Shown here piece after piece: positions 26,512 through 36,437 of a stretch of 52,190 nucleotides of DNA (positions are counted from its first letter, which is position 1; each line of letters opens with the position of its first letter). Origin of the DNA: an uncultured Syntrophobacterales bacterium (GTDB taxonomy: Bacteria > Desulfobacterota > Syntrophia > Syntrophales > UBA5619); the NCBI GenBank assembly GCA_903928915.1, contig CAIYSL010000121.1, positions 1 through 52,190 on the forward strand, written 5' to 3'. Made by a program: the position numbers and the translations under genes. The notes under the pieces were generated by a model. The model was not told where the DNA came from, did no database searches, and worked only from the letters and a program-made list of their open reading frames with translations.

Positions 26512-28101
26512 TTGCGCATCAGCCTTATCTCGAAGCTGACCATCGGTACCAGCCTTATCCTGCTCGTGTTCATGGTGTTTTTTGCCTACATCAATATCGC
26601 CACGTTCAAGACAACGCTCATGGAAGCGGCCATCTCCGATGCCGACAAATTGAGCGAGACGATCATCAAGTCCACCCACTACGAAATGCTCGAGGATAAC
26701 CGGAAACGGGCCTACGCCATGATCCAGGAGGTCGGCACGCTCGAAGGGGTACAATACATCCGGATGATCAACAAGAGCGGCACGATAACCTTCTCGACGG
26801 ATAAGGACGAGATCGGGCGGTACTTGGACAAGACAGAGGCCGGATGCAACGTGTGCCACACCAGCGGCGAGCCGAAGGTTCAGGCCTCCACGATGAACAG
26901 AAGCAGGATTTTTTTCGATAAGGCGGGAAAGCAGGTCGTGGGAATGGCCAAGGCGATTTACAACGAGAAGAGTTGTTACACCTCCGCATGCCACTTTCAC
27001 CCGCCCAAGCAACGGATACTGGGGGTCATCGATATCATCGTTTCTCTCGAAAACATGCATACGATGATCGGAACTTACCGGAACAAAATAATTTTCCTGA
27101 CAATCTTTCTACTATTGTCCATTTCTCTGGCCATAACGATTTTCACGCACCACCTGGTCAACCGCCCGGTCAAGCAACTCCTGACACAGACCAAGCGCAT
27201 TGCCCAGGGCGACCTCGACGCCCAGGTAAAGGACGTGACGAACGACGAGATGGGTGAGCTTACGGATGCCTTCAACAAGATGACCGCGAGTTTGAAGAAT
27301 GCCCGGATGGAACTGGAGGAGTGGGCAAAGAACCTCGAGGCAAAGGTTGCCGAACGGACGAGCGAAATAAAGCAGATGCAGATGCAGCTCATCCGGTCGG
27401 AAAAATTGGTTTCCCTCGGAAGACTGGTGGCCGGAATCACCCACGAGATCAACAACCCCCTGACGGGAATCCTGATGTTCGCCAACCTTACGAAGGAAAG
27501 CCCGCACCTGGACCCGTCGTTGAAGACCGACATGGATGTCATCATCAACGAAGCCCAGCGTTGCGCAAAAATAGTCAGAGGACTGCTCGATTTCTCCCGT
27601 GAATCGATACCGCAAAAGAAACAGGTGTCCCTCAACAGCATCATGGAGGCGACCCTCACCCTGATCGGCCGCCAGTCCAGCTTTCACAATGTCGATATCA
27701 TCAGGGATTACCAGCCCGATTTGCCACTTGTCCTGGTCGATGAAAACCAGTTGGAACAGGTGTTCATCAACATGTTGCTCAACGCCAGCCAGTCTATGTT
27801 TAGCGGCGGCAGCATCACGATCAGGACGTACGCGGAGGATGAATACGCCTGCATCCGGATAACCGATACCGGCGCCGGCATCAGCGAGGAGAACATGGGA
27901 AAGATATTTGATCCCTTCTTCACTACGAAGACCGATAAAGGCATGGGATTGGGCCTTTCCGTCTCCTATGGGATCATCGAGAGGCACGGCGGGAAGATCG
28001 AAGTAAGAAGTAAACTGGCCGAAGGAACAACCTTTACGATCAAAGTGCCCCTCAACCCGCAGGGGAAAGAGGCGTTGGCGGCCAGCAGCACGGTCAGTTA
28101 A
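26512..28101 (+). CDS. Histidine kinase with c-haem-type periplasmic sensor
   Basis: 529 residues. TM1 (7-29), a periplasmic domain (30-191), TM2 (192-214), HAMP (to about 265), coiled coil, HisKA with H311 in GITHEINNPLTG, and HATPase with DTGAGIS and GMGLGLSVSYG. The sensor has a haem motif C112-N-V-C-H116 and a second C155-x4-C160-H161 that may bind another haem or ligate metal. This implies sensing of periplasmic redox state or a diatomic ligand. The start is TTG at 26512, with AGGGGG eight bases upstream and a membrane helix directly after. The probable partner is the sigma-54 regulator at 29532-31010. Confidence 0.88.
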   Translation: MRISLISKLTIGTSLILLVFMVFFAYINIATFKTTLMEAAISDADKLSETIIKSTHYEMLEDNRKRAYAMIQEVGTLEGVQYIRMINKSGTITFSTDKDEIGRYLDKTEAGCNVCHTSGEPKVQASTMNRSRIFFDKAGKQVVGMAKAIYNEKSCYTSACHFHPPKQRILGVIDIIVSLENMHTMIGTYRNKIIFLTIFLLLSISLAITIFTHHLVNRPVKQLLTQTKRIAQGDLDAQVKDVTNDEMGELTDAFNKMTASLKNARMELEEWAKNLEAKVAERTSEIKQMQMQLIRSEKLVSLGRLVAGITHEINNPLTGILMFANLTKESPHLDPSLKTDMDVIINEAQRCAKIVRGLLDFSRESIPQKKQVSLNSIMEATLTLIGRQSSFHNVDIIRDYQPDLPLVLVDENQLEQVFINMLLNASQSMFSGGSITIRTYAEDEYACIRITDTGAGISEENMGKIFDPFFTTKTDKGMGLGLSVSYGIIERHGGKIEVRSKLAEGTTFTIKVPLNPQGKEALAASSTVS

Positions 28102-28439
28102 AGCCCCCAGCGCAGCTTTGCCCTGTTCAGCACTGCTAAACCCGTCAGGACCCACCCCTCCGGCCGCGGTGCAGCGGGGCCGCACGACCTCCCCCGCCCT
28201 GTCCGGCCAGCCCGGGCCGAAAGGGTATATTTTTTTATACAAAGGGTCGTCGGAAAATATATCAAGTGATCACAAATCATTAGCGTTATTCCGCTGCCGT
28301 CTCCGCTACCGGACCGCCACCTCCGCTGTATACGTTCATTATACACTTCCGTCCCCGCTTCACCCTTCAGTGGATCGGCACAATATAAAATATGTATGCT
28401 TATCAAATTGTTATACGTATTTACGGCCAGCAGTTTCCC
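28102..28439. other. Gene-free AT-rich stretch
   Basis: No credible reading frame. Base composition drops sharply in AT-rich patches at 28225-28275 and 28380-28420, unlike the flanking GC-rich genes. It lies upstream of the sigma-54 promoter at 28440, where enhancer sites and a bending region for the activator loop would be expected. No clear palindromic activator site was found by eye. Confidence 0.5.
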
Positions 28440-28455
28440 TGGCATGGTCATTGCT
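28440..28455 (+). promoter_or_regulatory. Sigma-54 promoter of the small-protein operon
   Basis: TGGCAT-GGTCA-TTGCT matches TGGCAC-N5-TTGCW at 10 of 11 fixed positions, with GG at 28441-28442 and GC at 28453-28454. Initiation is expected near 28466, about 53 bases before the ATG at 28519. It is the best -24/-12 element in the window. The NtrC-type regulator at 29532-31010 is the nearest activator candidate. Confidence 0.78.
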
Positions 28456-28518
28456 AAACGTAAGCTGACGAGAGAGAAACTCTGGCGTTTAACGCGACAG
28501 GAAAGAAAGGAAGAACCC

Positions 28519-28758
28519 ATGAAAGCCAAGACAGCGATCCTCACGGTGATGATGTTCACGGCGGTACCGGCACTGGCTTCGAGTGATGCGGGAACGGGGG
28601 GAGCCAGTTTCCTGGTGTTCCTTTTCCTCGGGTTCGGCGCTCTGATCTTCGCCTGCCAACTACTCCCCAGTCTGATGCTCTTCTGCGCGATGCTCAAGGG
28701 GCTTTTTCATGGTGCCGCCCCGGACACCATGCCAAAGAACGGTACCAAAGCAGCCTGA
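28519..28758 (+). CDS. Small exported one-helix membrane protein A
   Basis: 79 residues: signal peptide (1-20, ending ALA), short Gly/Ser linker, one long hydrophobic helix (31-60) and a short basic tail. The helix contains F-L-x-F-x-A-L-I-x-x-x-Q-L-x-P (36-50), shared with the protein at 29212-29478, so the two are probable paralogs. First gene behind the sigma-54 promoter; the receiver-like gene follows at once. I recognise no family. Position suggests a membrane or signalling accessory of the cytochrome cluster, not shown by sequence. Confidence 0.7.
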   Translation: MKAKTAILTVMMFTAVPALASSDAGTGGASFLVFLFLGFGALIFACQLLPSLMLFCAMLKGLFHGAAPDTMPKNGTKAA

Positions 28759-28784
28759 GATCGGGACAGAGGGGGATGGGAGAC

Positions 28785-29192
28785 ATGCGGGAATTGCTGA
28801 TCGCAGATAAGGATTCGGCCGCGCGAAAGCAGATGGCAGCGATGCTGATCGAAGCCGGTTACGATGTGATGGTGACGGACTCGGCCGTGAAGGCCATCAG
28901 CGGCGTACTCACGAAGAGAGCCAGGGTTGTACTGCTGGGGACCGAGCTCGACGAATTTACCTCCGCGGAGATCGTTCCGCTCCTGAAACAGTGCAACCGC
29001 AAGCTGATGATCATTCTGATCGCCGATGACGCACCCTTGCCGCTGATCAGGAAGGTGCGCAAGGAGGGTATCTTCTACCACGCCCTCCGCCCGGCGGAAC
29101 CGGAGGACGAGGAGGAGATCAAGCAGGTGGTGAAGTGCGCCATGGAAAGCCTGACCAGGACGGGGTACGAGCGCCGGGCGCAGGCGAACTGA
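28785..29192 (+). CDS. Degenerate receiver-domain protein
   Basis: 135 residues with CheY-like alternation (MRELLIADKDSAARKQMAAM at the start). The acidic pocket is kept (D8, D10), but the phosphoacceptor position reads VVLLG52 in place of VVLLD, and the switch lysine position reads HALRP. It is therefore probably not phosphorylated in the normal way and may act as a binding partner. Start at 28785 gives GGGGG nine bases upstream; ATG at 28776 is possible but has poor spacing. It lies between two paralogous small membrane proteins in one operon. Confidence 0.72.
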   Translation: MRELLIADKDSAARKQMAAMLIEAGYDVMVTDSAVKAISGVLTKRARVVLLGTELDEFTSAEIVPLLKQCNRKLMIILIADDAPLPLIRKVRKEGIFYHALRPAEPEDEEEIKQVVKCAMESLTRTGYERRAQAN

Positions 29193-29211
29193 CCGCAGCA
29201 GGGAGGACATT

Positions 29212-29478
29212 ATGCAGGGGGCAGCGAGAATCAAGAACATCGGCCTGGGGATAACGGCACTGTTGGTCAACGGCGCACCCCTGTGGGCCGCGGATGCCGC
29301 TCGGGAAGACAGCAGCAGCGTGTTCGTTTGGATATTCCTGGCCTTCTGCGCCCTGATCGTCGTTGCCCAACTCATACCGGCCGCGATGATGATGTTGGGG
29401 TTTGCCAAAGGGGTCAAGAAGGAATCGGGGCGAACCGCATCGCAAGGCGCCGATCACGCGGCTTCGCCGGATGCATGA
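29212..29478 (+). CDS. Small exported one-helix membrane protein B
   Basis: 88 residues: hydrophobic leader (8-26, ending LWA-A), acidic-serine linker, one hydrophobic helix (37-66) and a polar tail. F42-L-x-F-x-A-L-I-x-x-x-Q-L-x-P56 repeats the pattern of the protein at 28519-28758. GGGAGGAC precedes the ATG. No named family recognised. It closes the sigma-54-controlled three-gene operon and converges with the regulator gene 53 bases away. Confidence 0.68.
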   Translation: MQGAARIKNIGLGITALLVNGAPLWAADAAREDSSSVFVWIFLAFCALIVVAQLIPAAMMMLGFAKGVKKESGRTASQGADHAASPDA

Positions 29479-29531: not shown

Positions 29532-31010
29532 CTATTGATTGCCCTGCTCATCCCGGACGGAGATGCCCAGTTTCTTCAGGAGGGCATGAAAGTTTGGCCG
29601 CAGCATGCCTGTTTCTTCCGCGGCTTGTGAAATATTCCAGTTGTTCCTTTTCAGGGCGCTGAGGACAAAGGCCTTCTCGATCGGTTCAACCGCCCGCTCG
29701 CGGATCTGTTTCTTGGTCTCCTTCAATTCTTCCAGGTTCAGCGGAACCACATCCGGGTCGAGATAGCGATCCTCCTCCGCGGATCGCAGCTCCAGGTCGG
29801 CCCGCTGGATGATCTCGCCTTCGCAGAGCACGACCGCCCGCTCGAGAATATTCTCCAGCTCCCGCACATTTCCCGGGAAGGCGTATCCCTCCAGCACCGC
29901 CAGGGCATCAGGCGCCAGACCGCGGACCTCCTTTCCTACCTCTTCGGAGAACTTTCCCAGGAAGTGATGAATCAGCAGGGGCAGGTCTCCTCTTCGCTCC
30001 CTGAGCGGAGGAAGGTTTATCGGAATGACGTTGATGCGGAAAAAAAGATCGTCCCGGAATAACCCTTTGTCCACCATGGTCCGCAGGTTGACATTGGTCG
30101 CGACCACCAGCCGGATGTCGATCGGTACGGGCCGGGTGTCGCCGATGGGGGTCAGCATCCTCTCCTGGAGAACGCGCAGCAGCTTTGCCTGGGTAGCGAG
30201 ACTGATGTTCGAAATCTCGTCTAAAAACAGCGTGCCCCCGTCAGCGACCTTGAACAGCCCCGTCTTGCTGTGAATGGCGCCGGTGAACGATCCTTTCACA
30301 TGACCGAACAGTTCGCTTTCCAGGAGGGTTTCGGGGAGGGAGGTACAATCGACCGCTACGAAGGGCTGGCCGTGCCTTGGACTGTTCTTGTGCACGGCAC
30401 GCGCCACCAGTTCCTTGCCCGTCCCGCTCTCGCCGGTAATCAGCACCGTGCTGTCGGTGGGCGCCACCTGTACAATCCGGCGGTAGACTTTCTGCATCTC
30501 GATGCTCTCACCGACGAAGTCTTCGAACCCATGACCGGCACTGAGCACCTTCTTTACGGAAAAACCGTCCGCAAGCGATACGGTATGGGCGACGGCCTTG
30601 TGCAGCTTGTCGAGGATGAGTTCGGAGGAAAAAGGTTTGGCGATGTAGTCAAAGGCGCCGCTCTTCATGGCGTCGACGGCCGTATCGACGGTCGAATACC
30701 CGGTGATGATGATAACCGGCACCTCCGGCTGCAGAATCTTTATCGTCTTGAGCACTTCAATTCCGTCCATGCCGGGCATTTTCAGGTCCGTGATGACCAC
30801 AGCGAAATCCTGCTCCTGGATTTTTTCTATTGCCGCGCGTCCGCTGGCCGAGGTCTCAACGTGATACCCCTCGCTCGCAAGAATGCGGCGCATACCCTCC
30901 CTGATGACCGCCTCGTCATCGACGATGAGGATGCTGTGCCTCTCCGGAAGCTTTTCCTGGTTGCCTGTTTCCATGCTGCGATCGCTGCACGAAGCGCTGT
31001 TTGCGTTCAT
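29532..31010 (-). CDS. NtrC-family sigma-54-dependent response regulator (BccR-like by context)
   Basis: 492 residues: receiver with phosphoacceptor D75 in VVITDLKMPGMDG and K in YIAKPF; AAA+ domain with Walker A GESGTGKE, a GSFTGA loop (serine variant of GAFTGA), Walker B GGTLFLDEI; and a C-terminal Fis-type helix-turn-helix (NWNISQAAEETGMLRPNFHALL). ATG 31010 is used; 30974 is an alternative, and neither has a clear ribosome site. It is divergent from the cbcA-cbcB genes. In Geobacter a sigma-54 regulator, BccR, encoded near cbcBA is required for its expression, so this is the likely counterpart. Orthology is not tested. Confidence 0.88.
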   Translation of the reverse strand: MNANSASCSDRSMETGNQEKLPERHSILIVDDEAVIREGMRRILASEGYHVETSASGRAAIEKIQEQDFAVVITDLKMPGMDGIEVLKTIKILQPEVPVIIITGYSTVDTAVDAMKSGAFDYIAKPFSSELILDKLHKAVAHTVSLADGFSVKKVLSAGHGFEDFVGESIEMQKVYRRIVQVAPTDSTVLITGESGTGKELVARAVHKNSPRHGQPFVAVDCTSLPETLLESELFGHVKGSFTGAIHSKTGLFKVADGGTLFLDEISNISLATQAKLLRVLQERMLTPIGDTRPVPIDIRLVVATNVNLRTMVDKGLFRDDLFFRINVIPINLPPLRERRGDLPLLIHHFLGKFSEEVGKEVRGLAPDALAVLEGYAFPGNVRELENILERAVVLCEGEIIQRADLELRSAEEDRYLDPDVVPLNLEELKETKKQIRERAVEPIEKAFVLSALKRNNWNISQAAEETGMLRPNFHALLKKLGISVRDEQGNQ

Positions 31011-31511: not shown

Positions 31512-32564
31512 ATGAGTCGGACAAGAGGGTATCTGATTCTTCTGTTGTCGGCACTCATACCCGTGATGACAGCGGCGGCAGTGGGGGCAGCGGAAAGAAG
31601 CACCTGCCTGAGCTGCCACGGGGAAAGGAAGATCCTGAATAAGGGAACCCATCTCTACATCGACCCCGCAAAGTACGAATCGACGACCCATGAGCGCATC
31701 GGGTGTGTGGCCTGCCACACCGGGGTAACGCCGCGTCATCCCGCCGACGGTGTCCGTCCGTCCCGGGCGAAGTGCGAAGAGTGTCACGCCGCTGTGTATG
31801 CCGAGTACGAAAAGAGCAGCCACAGTGCCTATGCCGGCTGTACCGACTGCCACAAGCCGCATGCGGTAAAGCCGCTGCTGGCGGTGTCCGGGCGCGACAT
31901 CAACATCCAGTGCGCCAAGTGCCACGACAACTCCGCGACGGTCAAGAGCCACGCCAAGTGGCTGCCACAGGCAGCGCTCCACATCGACGCGCTGCCCTGC
32001 ATCACCTGCCATACAGGATCGAAGGAGACCGTAATCACCCTGTACATGGCCAAACGGGCGGGGGATTCACGCCTCGGCGGCGTGGCGCTGGCCGGGTACG
32101 AAGACCTGCGATCCTTCATACCGCCGGGCAAGAAGATCGGACGGGTGATCGACAGCAACGGCGACGGCGCGGTTTCGCTCGACGAGCTGAAGGCGTTCAA
32201 CACCAGCAGCCAGTTCAAGCACATCAGCCTCCTGGGGACGATGATGCCGGAAGTGGTAACCCACAGCTTTCAGATCCTGGCCAACCGCTGGGATTGCACC
32301 TTCTGCCACGCCTCGGGGCCAAACGCGCAGCAGACCAGCCAGCTCGCCTTCCCCGAGCAGGGCGGCACCTACAGCCGGATGATTGTGGAGAAAGGCGCCA
32401 TCCTGGACATCCTCTACGGAACCCCGGATTTCTACATGACGGGCTTCACGCGGAACAAGACCCTGAGCATCATCGGCATCTTGATCGTGGCCTCGGGCCT
32501 GATGGTGCCGATTCTGCACGGCACGCTTCGCTTCCTCACCAGAAGCAGAAGAAAGGAGCGCTGA
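31512..32564 (+). CDS. cbcA: CbcA-like membrane-anchored heptahaem cytochrome c with EF-hand loop
   Basis: 350 residues: signal peptide (1-26), seven CXXCH sites (CLSCH, CVACH, CEECH, CTDCH, CAKCH, CITCH, CTFCH) and a C-terminal transmembrane helix (about 320-341) ending in a basic cytoplasmic tail. Between haems 6 and 7, residues 214-225 (DSNGDGAVSLDE) form a full EF-hand calcium loop: D1, N3, D5, G6, V8, E12. AAGGAGGAAG precedes the ATG. With the diheme b gene one base later it matches the CbcBA quinol oxidase of Geobacter, used close to the thermodynamic limit of respiration. Confidence 0.83.
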   Translation: MSRTRGYLILLLSALIPVMTAAAVGAAERSTCLSCHGERKILNKGTHLYIDPAKYESTTHERIGCVACHTGVTPRHPADGVRPSRAKCEECHAAVYAEYEKSSHSAYAGCTDCHKPHAVKPLLAVSGRDINIQCAKCHDNSATVKSHAKWLPQAALHIDALPCITCHTGSKETVITLYMAKRAGDSRLGGVALAGYEDLRSFIPPGKKIGRVIDSNGDGAVSLDELKAFNTSSQFKHISLLGTMMPEVVTHSFQILANRWDCTFCHASGPNAQQTSQLAFPEQGGTYSRMIVEKGAILDILYGTPDFYMTGFTRNKTLSIIGILIVASGLMVPILHGTLRFLTRSRRKER

Positions 32565-32565
32565 C

Positions 32566-33213
32566 ATGACGGAACAGACCCCCCCGGAGCAGGTGTACCT
32601 TACCCCCACCCCGGTGAGGATATGGCACTGGCTGAACGCCTTGGGCATCGTCACCCTGTGCGTAACGGGCATCCAGATCCGATTCCCGGAATACGCGAAC
32701 ATCTTCGGGACATACAAGGCGGCAATCCGGCTGCACGACATCGCCGGGATCACTGTCTCGATTTCCTTTCTCCTCTGGATCTTCTACTATCTGGTGGTGG
32801 CAAGGAACATCGCAAAGGTCTACGTCCCGACATTAGCTGACATCAAGTCAGGGCTGTTCCAGCAGGCGTTCTTCTATTTCTTCAACTATTTTTTGGGGAA
32901 AGACAATCCCCATACGGCGACACCGGACAACAAATTCAACGCCATCCAGAAAGTTACGTATTTCATGACCATGTTCCTGTTGATACCACTGGTCGTCGTC
33001 AGCGGCCTGCTGCTGATGAACATTGCCCCCCTCAGGGCATGGATCATCGCGATCGGGGGCATCAAGTTTCTGGTGGACGCCCACTACCTGCTTGCCTGTT
33101 CGTTCTTCGCCTTTCTGTGCGTCCATGTGTACATGGCGACGCTGGGGCATACCCCCTTTGCCCATTTCCGCCAGATGTGGACCGGATGGGAGAAGATGGA
33201 ACACACCGGGTAA
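32566..33213 (+). CDS. cbcB: CbcB-like diheme cytochrome b
   Basis: 215 residues, four main hydrophobic helices, opening YLTPTPVRIWHWLNALGIV as in Ni/Fe-hydrogenase and formate-dehydrogenase b-type cytochromes. Candidate haem histidines are in RIWHWLN, AIRLHDIAG, LVDAHYLL and FLCVHVYMA. It would take electrons from quinol and pass them to the haem chain of the preceding cytochrome. GGAGCGC precedes the ATG, which starts one base after the cbcA stop. The 268-base gap after it shows no promoter I would defend. Confidence 0.85.
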   Translation: MTEQTPPEQVYLTPTPVRIWHWLNALGIVTLCVTGIQIRFPEYANIFGTYKAAIRLHDIAGITVSISFLLWIFYYLVVARNIAKVYVPTLADIKSGLFQQAFFYFFNYFLGKDNPHTATPDNKFNAIQKVTYFMTMFLLIPLVVVSGLLLMNIAPLRAWIIAIGGIKFLVDAHYLLACSFFAFLCVHVYMATLGHTPFAHFRQMWTGWEKMEHTG

Positions 33214-35921: not shown

Positions 35922-36437
35922 TCAGGCCCTCCCCATCTTCTGCAGCGTCTCGTTCAACACATGGTAGAAGGCCCTGTTTTCGGCGTTCCCCTGCTTGATG
36001 ATCTTTCCCACCTCAGCGATGCTGGCCGGATTGACGACGATATTGACGCTTCGGTTGAAGGCCGCCATGTGATCCATCGTCCGGAACCGCGAGCTCACCA
36101 GGGCCACGAAGAACCGCCGCCGCGTGGTCATCGGCAGCTCCGCCAGGTAATGGAGGACGCTGTTCGCCTGCGGATCGGCCGTGTCGAACAGCTCATCGAG
36201 AACGACGACGTCGAAGATGTGAAACCGCATCGCCTTGAGGGCGTCTTTGGCGGTCGCCGACACCGTGACCCGATACCCGAGTTCATCGAGGCCGCTGAGG
36301 ATCTTCTCCCGGACTGCGGGATCGGATTCGCAGACCAGCGCCGTCTCCCCGCCTGCCTCAATAAAATCGAACGGCTTGTCCGCAGCGTCGTACCCGTCAG
36401 ACGCGACATCAGTCGCAAGAGTCTTCTCCTCTTCCAT
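35922..36437 (-). CDS. Receiver-domain protein downstream of pilT genes
   Basis: 171 residues. An acidic N-terminal extension (1-30) is followed by a CheY-like domain: ALVCESDPAVREKILSGLDE, phosphoacceptor Asp in VVVLDELFD and a VALVSSRFRT strand. The switch lysine position falls in NIVVNPAS, so it is atypical. There is no output domain. GGGGAGGGGG lies upstream of the ATG. It is the last gene of a minus-strand set with two PilT ATPases, so a role in pilus retraction control is reasonable but unproven. Confidence 0.72.
   Translation of the reverse strand: MEEEKTLATDVASDGYDAADKPFDFIEAGGETALVCESDPAVREKILSGLDELGYRVTVSATAKDALKAMRFHIFDVVVLDELFDTADPQANSVLHYLAELPMTTRRRFFVALVSSRFRTMDHMAAFNRSVNIVVNPASIAEVGKIIKQGNAENRAFYHVLNETLQKMGRA

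Follow-up and report, generated by a model that had tools for sequence, protein, structure and literature searches.

Three small genes in the window (the whole stretch analysed, 52,190 nucleotides of a contig from an uncultured Syntrophobacterales bacterium) belong to a real, conserved and dedicated module, whose architecture and regulation are well supported. Two paralogous exported proteins with one membrane helix each, A and B, flank a receiver domain that has lost its phosphorylation residues, and the genes follow a conserved sigma-54 promoter with paired upstream dyads. On sequence grounds we put at roughly 0.5 the probability that this trio is an enzyme-matched accessory or control module of low-potential menaquinol:cytochrome c oxidoreductases, in which B would face the enzyme and hold the receiver at the membrane. 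The features of the locus are as follows, with the basis of each assignment in brackets.

26512..28101, + strand: sensor histidine kinase whose sensor region carries a CxxCH (haem) motif; it probably partners the activator (neighbour in many cassettes)
28225..28240, no strand: upstream dyad 1, GTATA-N6-TATAC, where a sigma-54 activator probably has an enhancer site (rarity in the genome, position in homologues)
28327..28345, no strand: upstream dyad 2, TGTATA-N7-TATACA (about 102 bp from dyad 1; 101-106 bp in homologues)
28440..28455, + strand: sigma-54 -24/-12 promoter element, TGGCATGGTCATTGCT (motif and conservation in homologues)
28519..28758, + strand: gene A, 79 aa, signal peptide and one transmembrane helix with a conserved Q-L-x-P core (alignment of relatives)
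28776..29192, + strand: phospho-dead receiver (pseudoreceiver), 138 aa, signature EGIFYHALxP (Pfam, Spo0F alignment, predicted structure)
29212..29478, + strand: gene B, paralogue of A, 88 aa, with a REDSS-type periplasmic segment as in CbcBA-linked homologues (homology)
29532..31010, - strand: sigma-54 response regulator of the NtrC type that probably activates the cassette (neighbour in many cassettes)
31513..32564, + strand: CbcA-like cytochrome c with seven CxxCH motifs, RBS and ATG near 31513 (CxxCH count)
32566..33213, + strand: CbcB-like cytochrome b561 membrane subunit (PF01292)

Results

Small proteins and the pseudoreceiver

The original prediction described A and B as paralogous one-span exported proteins with a shared helix motif, and the description holds in each respect. 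The motif common to both helices reads as given there, FLGFGALIFACQLLP in A and FLAFCALIVVAQLIP in B, and a search of the window's own genome with A recovers B at E 9.6e-5, so that the two are true relatives; a receiver-less second A-B pair turns up on contig C102 in the same search. In 289 unique relatives of A and B, the Gln, Pro and one Phe of the helix are conserved in 99%, 98% and 97% of sequences, and the two Ala of the signal-peptide AxA site in 88% and 96%. By such sequence statistics, an AxA site followed by a single later hydrophobic helix, both proteins have a cleavable signal and one span. The genes for A, the receiver and B are each preceded by a Shine-Dalgarno-like sequence.

A receiver without its Asp, the second component claimed, is likewise borne out. 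The protein, whose start possibly lies at 28785 rather than 28776, has a modest but real match, above the cut-off, to Pfam Response_reg (PF00072; E 3.7e-7). Its AlphaFold2 model (pLDDT 89.9) has the standard alpha/beta receiver fold with a long last helix, and the model gives 570 matches in the PDB at E<=0.001, the top ones being receivers. In contrast to the fold, the phospho-acceptor Asp, the complete acidic pair, the Thr/Ser switch and the conserved Lys are missing: in the alignment with Spo0F, Asp54 corresponds to Gly55, the second acid to Lys12 (D11 of the pair is kept), the switch Thr to Ile82 and the Lys to Arg105, a position at which 112 of 139 relatives have K. The phospho-Asp site of these 139 relatives is occupied by G in 87, S in 44 and A in 1 (132/139 together) and by D in 7, which makes the loss of phosphorylation a lasting trait of the family and not decay.

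Spo0F, representing the closest solved relatives by sequence, is likewise a stand-alone receiver (fold TM-score about 0.76 by query length), but it is phosphorylated on Asp54. The KaiA pseudoreceiver and HP1043 are phospho-dead, atypical receivers, and they share with the trio protein the receiver fold without a working acceptor Asp; in contrast to them, the trio receiver has no output domain, is flanked by two membrane microproteins and in some genera forms a fusion with one of the two. Another small receiver-like protein, outside the pseudoreceiver family, is encoded in the window at 35922-36437 (-) and conserved in a related genome (L015:16868-17383, -).

Promoter and upstream dyads

A near-consensus TGGCAT-N5-TTGCT sigma-54 promoter had been proposed ahead of the trio, and TGGCAT-GGTCA-TTGCT at 28440-28455 (+) is the sole exact match to TGGCAYN5TTGCW within the window, with the GG and GC of the -24/-12 element at the correct spacing. 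Although the motif count is near chance (with 1 mismatch, 3 matches in the window versus 1.7 expected), we accept the element as real because it is conserved in homologues. In 91% of the cassettes (151 after removal of redundancy), the first small gene has a sigma-54 element 40-170 nt ahead of it; shuffled sequences give 6-17%, depending on the threshold. The element is kept even at unlinked copies (20/20 A-B pairs and 14/17 single copies).

Dyads of the form TGTATA-N7-TATACA (at most one mismatch) precede 60% of the 151 non-redundant clusters and are found in 1.2% of shuffles. Their distances upstream of the -24 element are concentrated in two ranges, about 100-120 nt and about 200-230 nt, and paired dyads are mostly separated by 101-106 bp; dyad 1 of the window falls, as in homologues, in the farther range. 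The pattern GTATA-N6-8-TATAC occurs just three times in the 4.34 Mb genome, two of them ahead of the trio and one ahead of the second A-B pair; no dyad was found upstream of cbcA in the window. The NtrC-type regulator (29532-31010) and the haem-motif kinase (26512-28101) are the likely activator pair of the cassette, since both adjoin many cassettes, and the regulator probably acts by binding at the two TGTATA-N7-TATACA dyads.

Distribution and architecture

Had the trio been confined to this genome, the prediction would have failed; instead, relatives are widespread. A profile search with the A+B alignment, of the kind suggested originally for finding other pairs, detected them in 5 of 155 genomes of the class, in 40 of the 395 genomes sampled from the phylum and in 62 of 76 genomes of one Geobacter-type family; a single genome has as many as 15 matches. 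Named genomes were scanned for the receiver by a motif around EGIFYHAL, whose conservation is thereby partly selected (the Asp site lies outside the pattern), and this yielded 181 relatives in Geobacteraceae, other Desulfuromonadia and Syntrophaceae. The best 80 of the 181 include Geomonas, Geotalea, Citrifermentans, Trichlorobacter, Pelotalea and Geobacter argillaceus, as well as further Desulfuromonadia and also Syntrophaceae; closest to the window genome are Syntrophus/Syntrophobacterales MAGs.

Among 178 parsed clusters, a count that includes some loci taken twice, the order A-receiver-B is kept in 86, and 13 more carry a receiver-B fusion, which speaks for a module; there are also 18 A-receiver clusters, 21 receiver-less pairs and 17 single genes. 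The match at L019 (genome G079) sits inside a larger gene and was discarded as a false positive. Dispersed A-B or B-only copies (L194-L196 of genome G559, L064-L072, L088) mostly have a sigma-54 element of their own, and dispersed A/B copies adjoin apparently unrelated genes, as judged from the translations of the neighbours. In a distant branch (family f28; L074, L075, L082, L103) the order is small-small-receiver and the receivers keep Asp at the acceptor site; two of these loci lie before an 11-haem cytochrome.

Neighbouring oxidoreductases and regulators

Seventy-two receiver-containing cassettes have enough flanking sequence to judge their neighbours, and 63 of them have an inner-membrane menaquinol:cytochrome oxidoreductase within 6 kb, compared with 7 of 30 receiver-less clusters (Fisher p 6e-10; the enzyme labels rest on phmmer matches to proteins of the window, L015 and L016). 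The enzymes are CbcA/CbcB (CbcBA/Cbc5), a pentahaem cytochrome/FeS/NrfD-like type labelled Cbc4, whose NrfD-like protein has no Pfam match, and CbcL-like. The expectation that cassettes always sit next to cbc-type cytochromes holds for these 63 trios but fails for 9/72 trios and 23/30 receiver-less clusters. The NtrC-type activator or the haem-motif kinase adjoins 57 of the 72; the 9 trios without a nearby enzyme are also without a nearby regulator, and some others have an enzyme but no regulator.

The window itself holds a CbcBA/Cbc5-type locus, a multihaem CbcA with seven CxxCH motifs followed by a b-type CbcB matching PF01292. There the activator gene separates the trio from cbcA, which makes the trio a transcription unit of its own. 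Three close Syntrophales trios adjoin CbcBA-like (window), NrfD-like (G002) and formate-dehydrogenase-like (G005) genes. Since related trios adjoin different enzymes, a role of the whole trio as dedicated subunit of one enzyme was rejected.

Several neighbouring genes merit a separate mention. Between 22632 and 33213 of the window, an ImcH-like NapC/NirT cytochrome (6 CxxCH), a CbcL-like fusion of a 9-CxxCH cytochrome with cytochrome b, and the CbcA/CbcB-like genes stand side by side; it is likely, with names resting on size, haem count and Pfam, that relatives of all three inner-membrane Geobacter routes are clustered in one Syntrophales-type genome, and partly also in L016. A haem-motif cache protein of about 280 aa (L018:12934-13752, similar in many loci) follows many oxidoreductase operons and resembles the sensor part of the kinase, without the kinase domain. 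At L016:15502-16065, L106 and L107 the trio is followed by a molybdopterin/Fe4S4 protein with an early-ending frame, possibly a selenocysteine formate dehydrogenase.

Matching of B to the enzyme type

As to DISCRIMINATING, the short segment of B before the helix differs with the enzyme: next to CbcA/CbcB (Cbc5) it is of the D-N-S-G kind in a ratio of 25:1, and next to NrfD enzymes it is of the Y-x-S-G kind in a ratio of 40:0 (Fisher p 2.5e-17 for both kinds, in a test that leaves out B sequences of neither kind and ignores relatedness). At the one exception, L085, an extra small gene of the expected kind adjoins cbcA. Because Fisher's test ignores relatedness, quick gene trees were made for the matched trios. 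For 65 matched trios, the B tree requires one switch of enzyme label (support 97-99), the A tree 8 and the receiver tree 6, at least 3 changes being forced by well-supported branches in each of the latter two; on the NtrC and kinase trees, built from subsets of the same loci, the label changes 6 times each, at least 4 of them forced, versus 1 for B. This pattern places a breakpoint between the receiver and B: kinase, activator, A and receiver are thus the common half of the locus, and B together with the enzyme the specific half. Linkage of B to the adjacent enzyme genes may contribute to the match.

A single reading frame that shows no clear internal start encodes both the receiver and B in Geomonas and Citrifermentans, as well as in two MAGs (L173, L182). 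In the L173 fusion model (pLDDT 83.5, pTM 0.59) the receiver is followed by TM1 at 140-160 and a long TM2 at 171-219. Such fusions support the notion that receiver and B work together, with the receiver predicted on the cytoplasmic side. At L096, L085, L073 and L097 the two frames are joined without a stop and the ATG of B is kept, at L096 with its own Shine-Dalgarno sequence; both a fusion and a free B could be made there.

Discussion

Joshi et al. 2021, a study cited in PMC10553843, reportedly found that cells need CbcBA close to the energetic limit and that BccR helps to induce it, BccR being the regulator that we take to be GSU0598, with the GSU0596-0597 stretch between it and cbcBA (GSU0593-0594). 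By annotation, on which the likeness in gene set rests, the Cbc5/CbcBA locus of G. sulfurreducens (GSU0590-0598) resembles the window in having cbcA, cbcB, a stand-alone response receiver (GSU0596), a small hypothetical gene (GSU0597) and an adjacent sigma-54 regulator; in contrast, the window activator sits between the trio and cbcA. The genes cbcB and cbcA are GSU0593 and GSU0594, encoding subunits of Cbc5 (PMC7726332), and GSU0596 and GSU0597, annotated as 'Response receiver' and 'hypothetical protein', change jointly with GSU3409, GSU3410 and GSU3489 in a gsu1771 mutant (PMC10599522). GSU0597, GSU3409 and GSU3410 are decreased in a csrA mutant (PMC11934962), and under cobalt GSU3410, predicted in the inner membrane, goes up together with cbcBA (PMC7726332). 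GSU3409/3410 were called 'putative membrane proteins' (PMC6520446), and a family of ten members, found in each of the six Geobacter genomes compared, is named after GSU3410 (PMC2825233); we suspect that GSU3409/3410 are a dispersed A-B pair. The cited G. sulfurreducens reports give no function for the small genes of the locus. The view that no described system has this composition is right as regards function but not as regards the genes, which appear to lie in a studied locus of a model organism (GSU0596, GSU0597), though A and B match no family in Pfam or NCBIfam.

The proposed explanation runs as follows. The haem-motif sensor kinase and the NtrC-type activator would turn on the sigma-54 promoter, probably via the two dyads, and the first products would be A, B and the receiver, A and B being single-span proteins predicted to have an outward N-terminus and an inward-facing basic tail. 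A and B are probably joined to each other by the conserved Gln-x-x-Pro helix inside the membrane, and the receiver, no longer phosphorylatable, may serve as a fixed binding domain. B would be fitted to the enzyme by its short periplasmic segment, which differs between CbcBA-type and NrfD-type operons, and would keep the receiver at the cytoplasmic face, with A and the receiver as the common part of all versions. The module may thereby aid assembly or activity of the enzyme and bridge it to the cytoplasmic side. Against this reading are the CbcBA-linked A-B pairs L185 and L188, which have no receiver, and, in the window, the trio's separate transcription unit together with the failure to find a dyad upstream of cbcA. 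CydX, CcoQ and CcmD are small accessory membrane subunits of respiratory enzymes; like A and B, they are short, cross the membrane once and have their genes in the operon of a respiratory complex. A and B differ from them in cleavable-type signal peptides, in forming a paralogous pair with a receiver, and in having no significant CcmD or Pfam match. A simple role as enzyme subunits is weakened by the many A/B copies among unrelated genes. Of the roles suggested originally, a scaffold or accessory one is in keeping with this picture; nothing supports an anti-sigma role, and cytochrome maturation was dropped after the A/B profile gave nothing but insignificant matches to solved structures (CcmD, E 0.63).

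Receivers naturally dock on kinases, and the phospho-dead receiver could instead be a decoy that binds its own sensor kinase, or the activator, and limits the signal, with A and B tethering it beside the kinase. The regulators adjoining most receiver cassettes, and the exchange of A, receiver, kinase and activator, but not B, between enzyme types, would suit such a feedback brake, yet we think it somewhat unlikely: B fits the enzyme rather than the kinase, the receiver is missing from dispersed A-B copies, the 9 enzyme-less cassettes are regulator-less too, and some cassettes have an enzyme but no regulator. That A and B are bulk proteins shaping or enlarging the inner membrane, for example as intracytoplasmic membranes, under regulation by the receiver, seems improbable. 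Amplified dispersed copies under the same promoter agree with it, as do the intracytoplasmic membranes that G. sulfurreducens forms on low-potential anodes by an unknown mechanism (PMC10082016), but the tie to these is by growth condition only, A and B have no recognisable membrane-shaping feature, and the match of B to the enzyme type would be left unexplained.

Least of all do we believe that these are ordinary hypothetical genes kept near a cytochrome cluster by linkage, without a common function. The lack of a Pfam or NCBIfam family for A and B fits such a view, and we know of no phenotype for the trio genes; however, it is already contradicted by the near-invariant helix Gln, Pro and Phe and by the promoter retained even at unlinked copies.

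The enzyme-matched module could also be a physical bridge, in which B recognises the enzyme from the membrane, the receiver it holds contacts either the haem-motif kinase or the activator, and A keeps the two in balance, so that occupancy or activity of the oxidoreductase is reported to the cell; we regard this extension as rather unlikely. If true, a respiratory chain could be tuned to redox potential in a novel manner, with B exchanged to refit the module to other enzymes. The cassette is part of a dedicated sigma-54 regulon, apparently as its only strict-pattern target in the window genome, and its proteins carry no family name. Overall, the trio bears on how Geobacter-type bacteria change their inner-membrane oxidoreductases as the redox potential falls.
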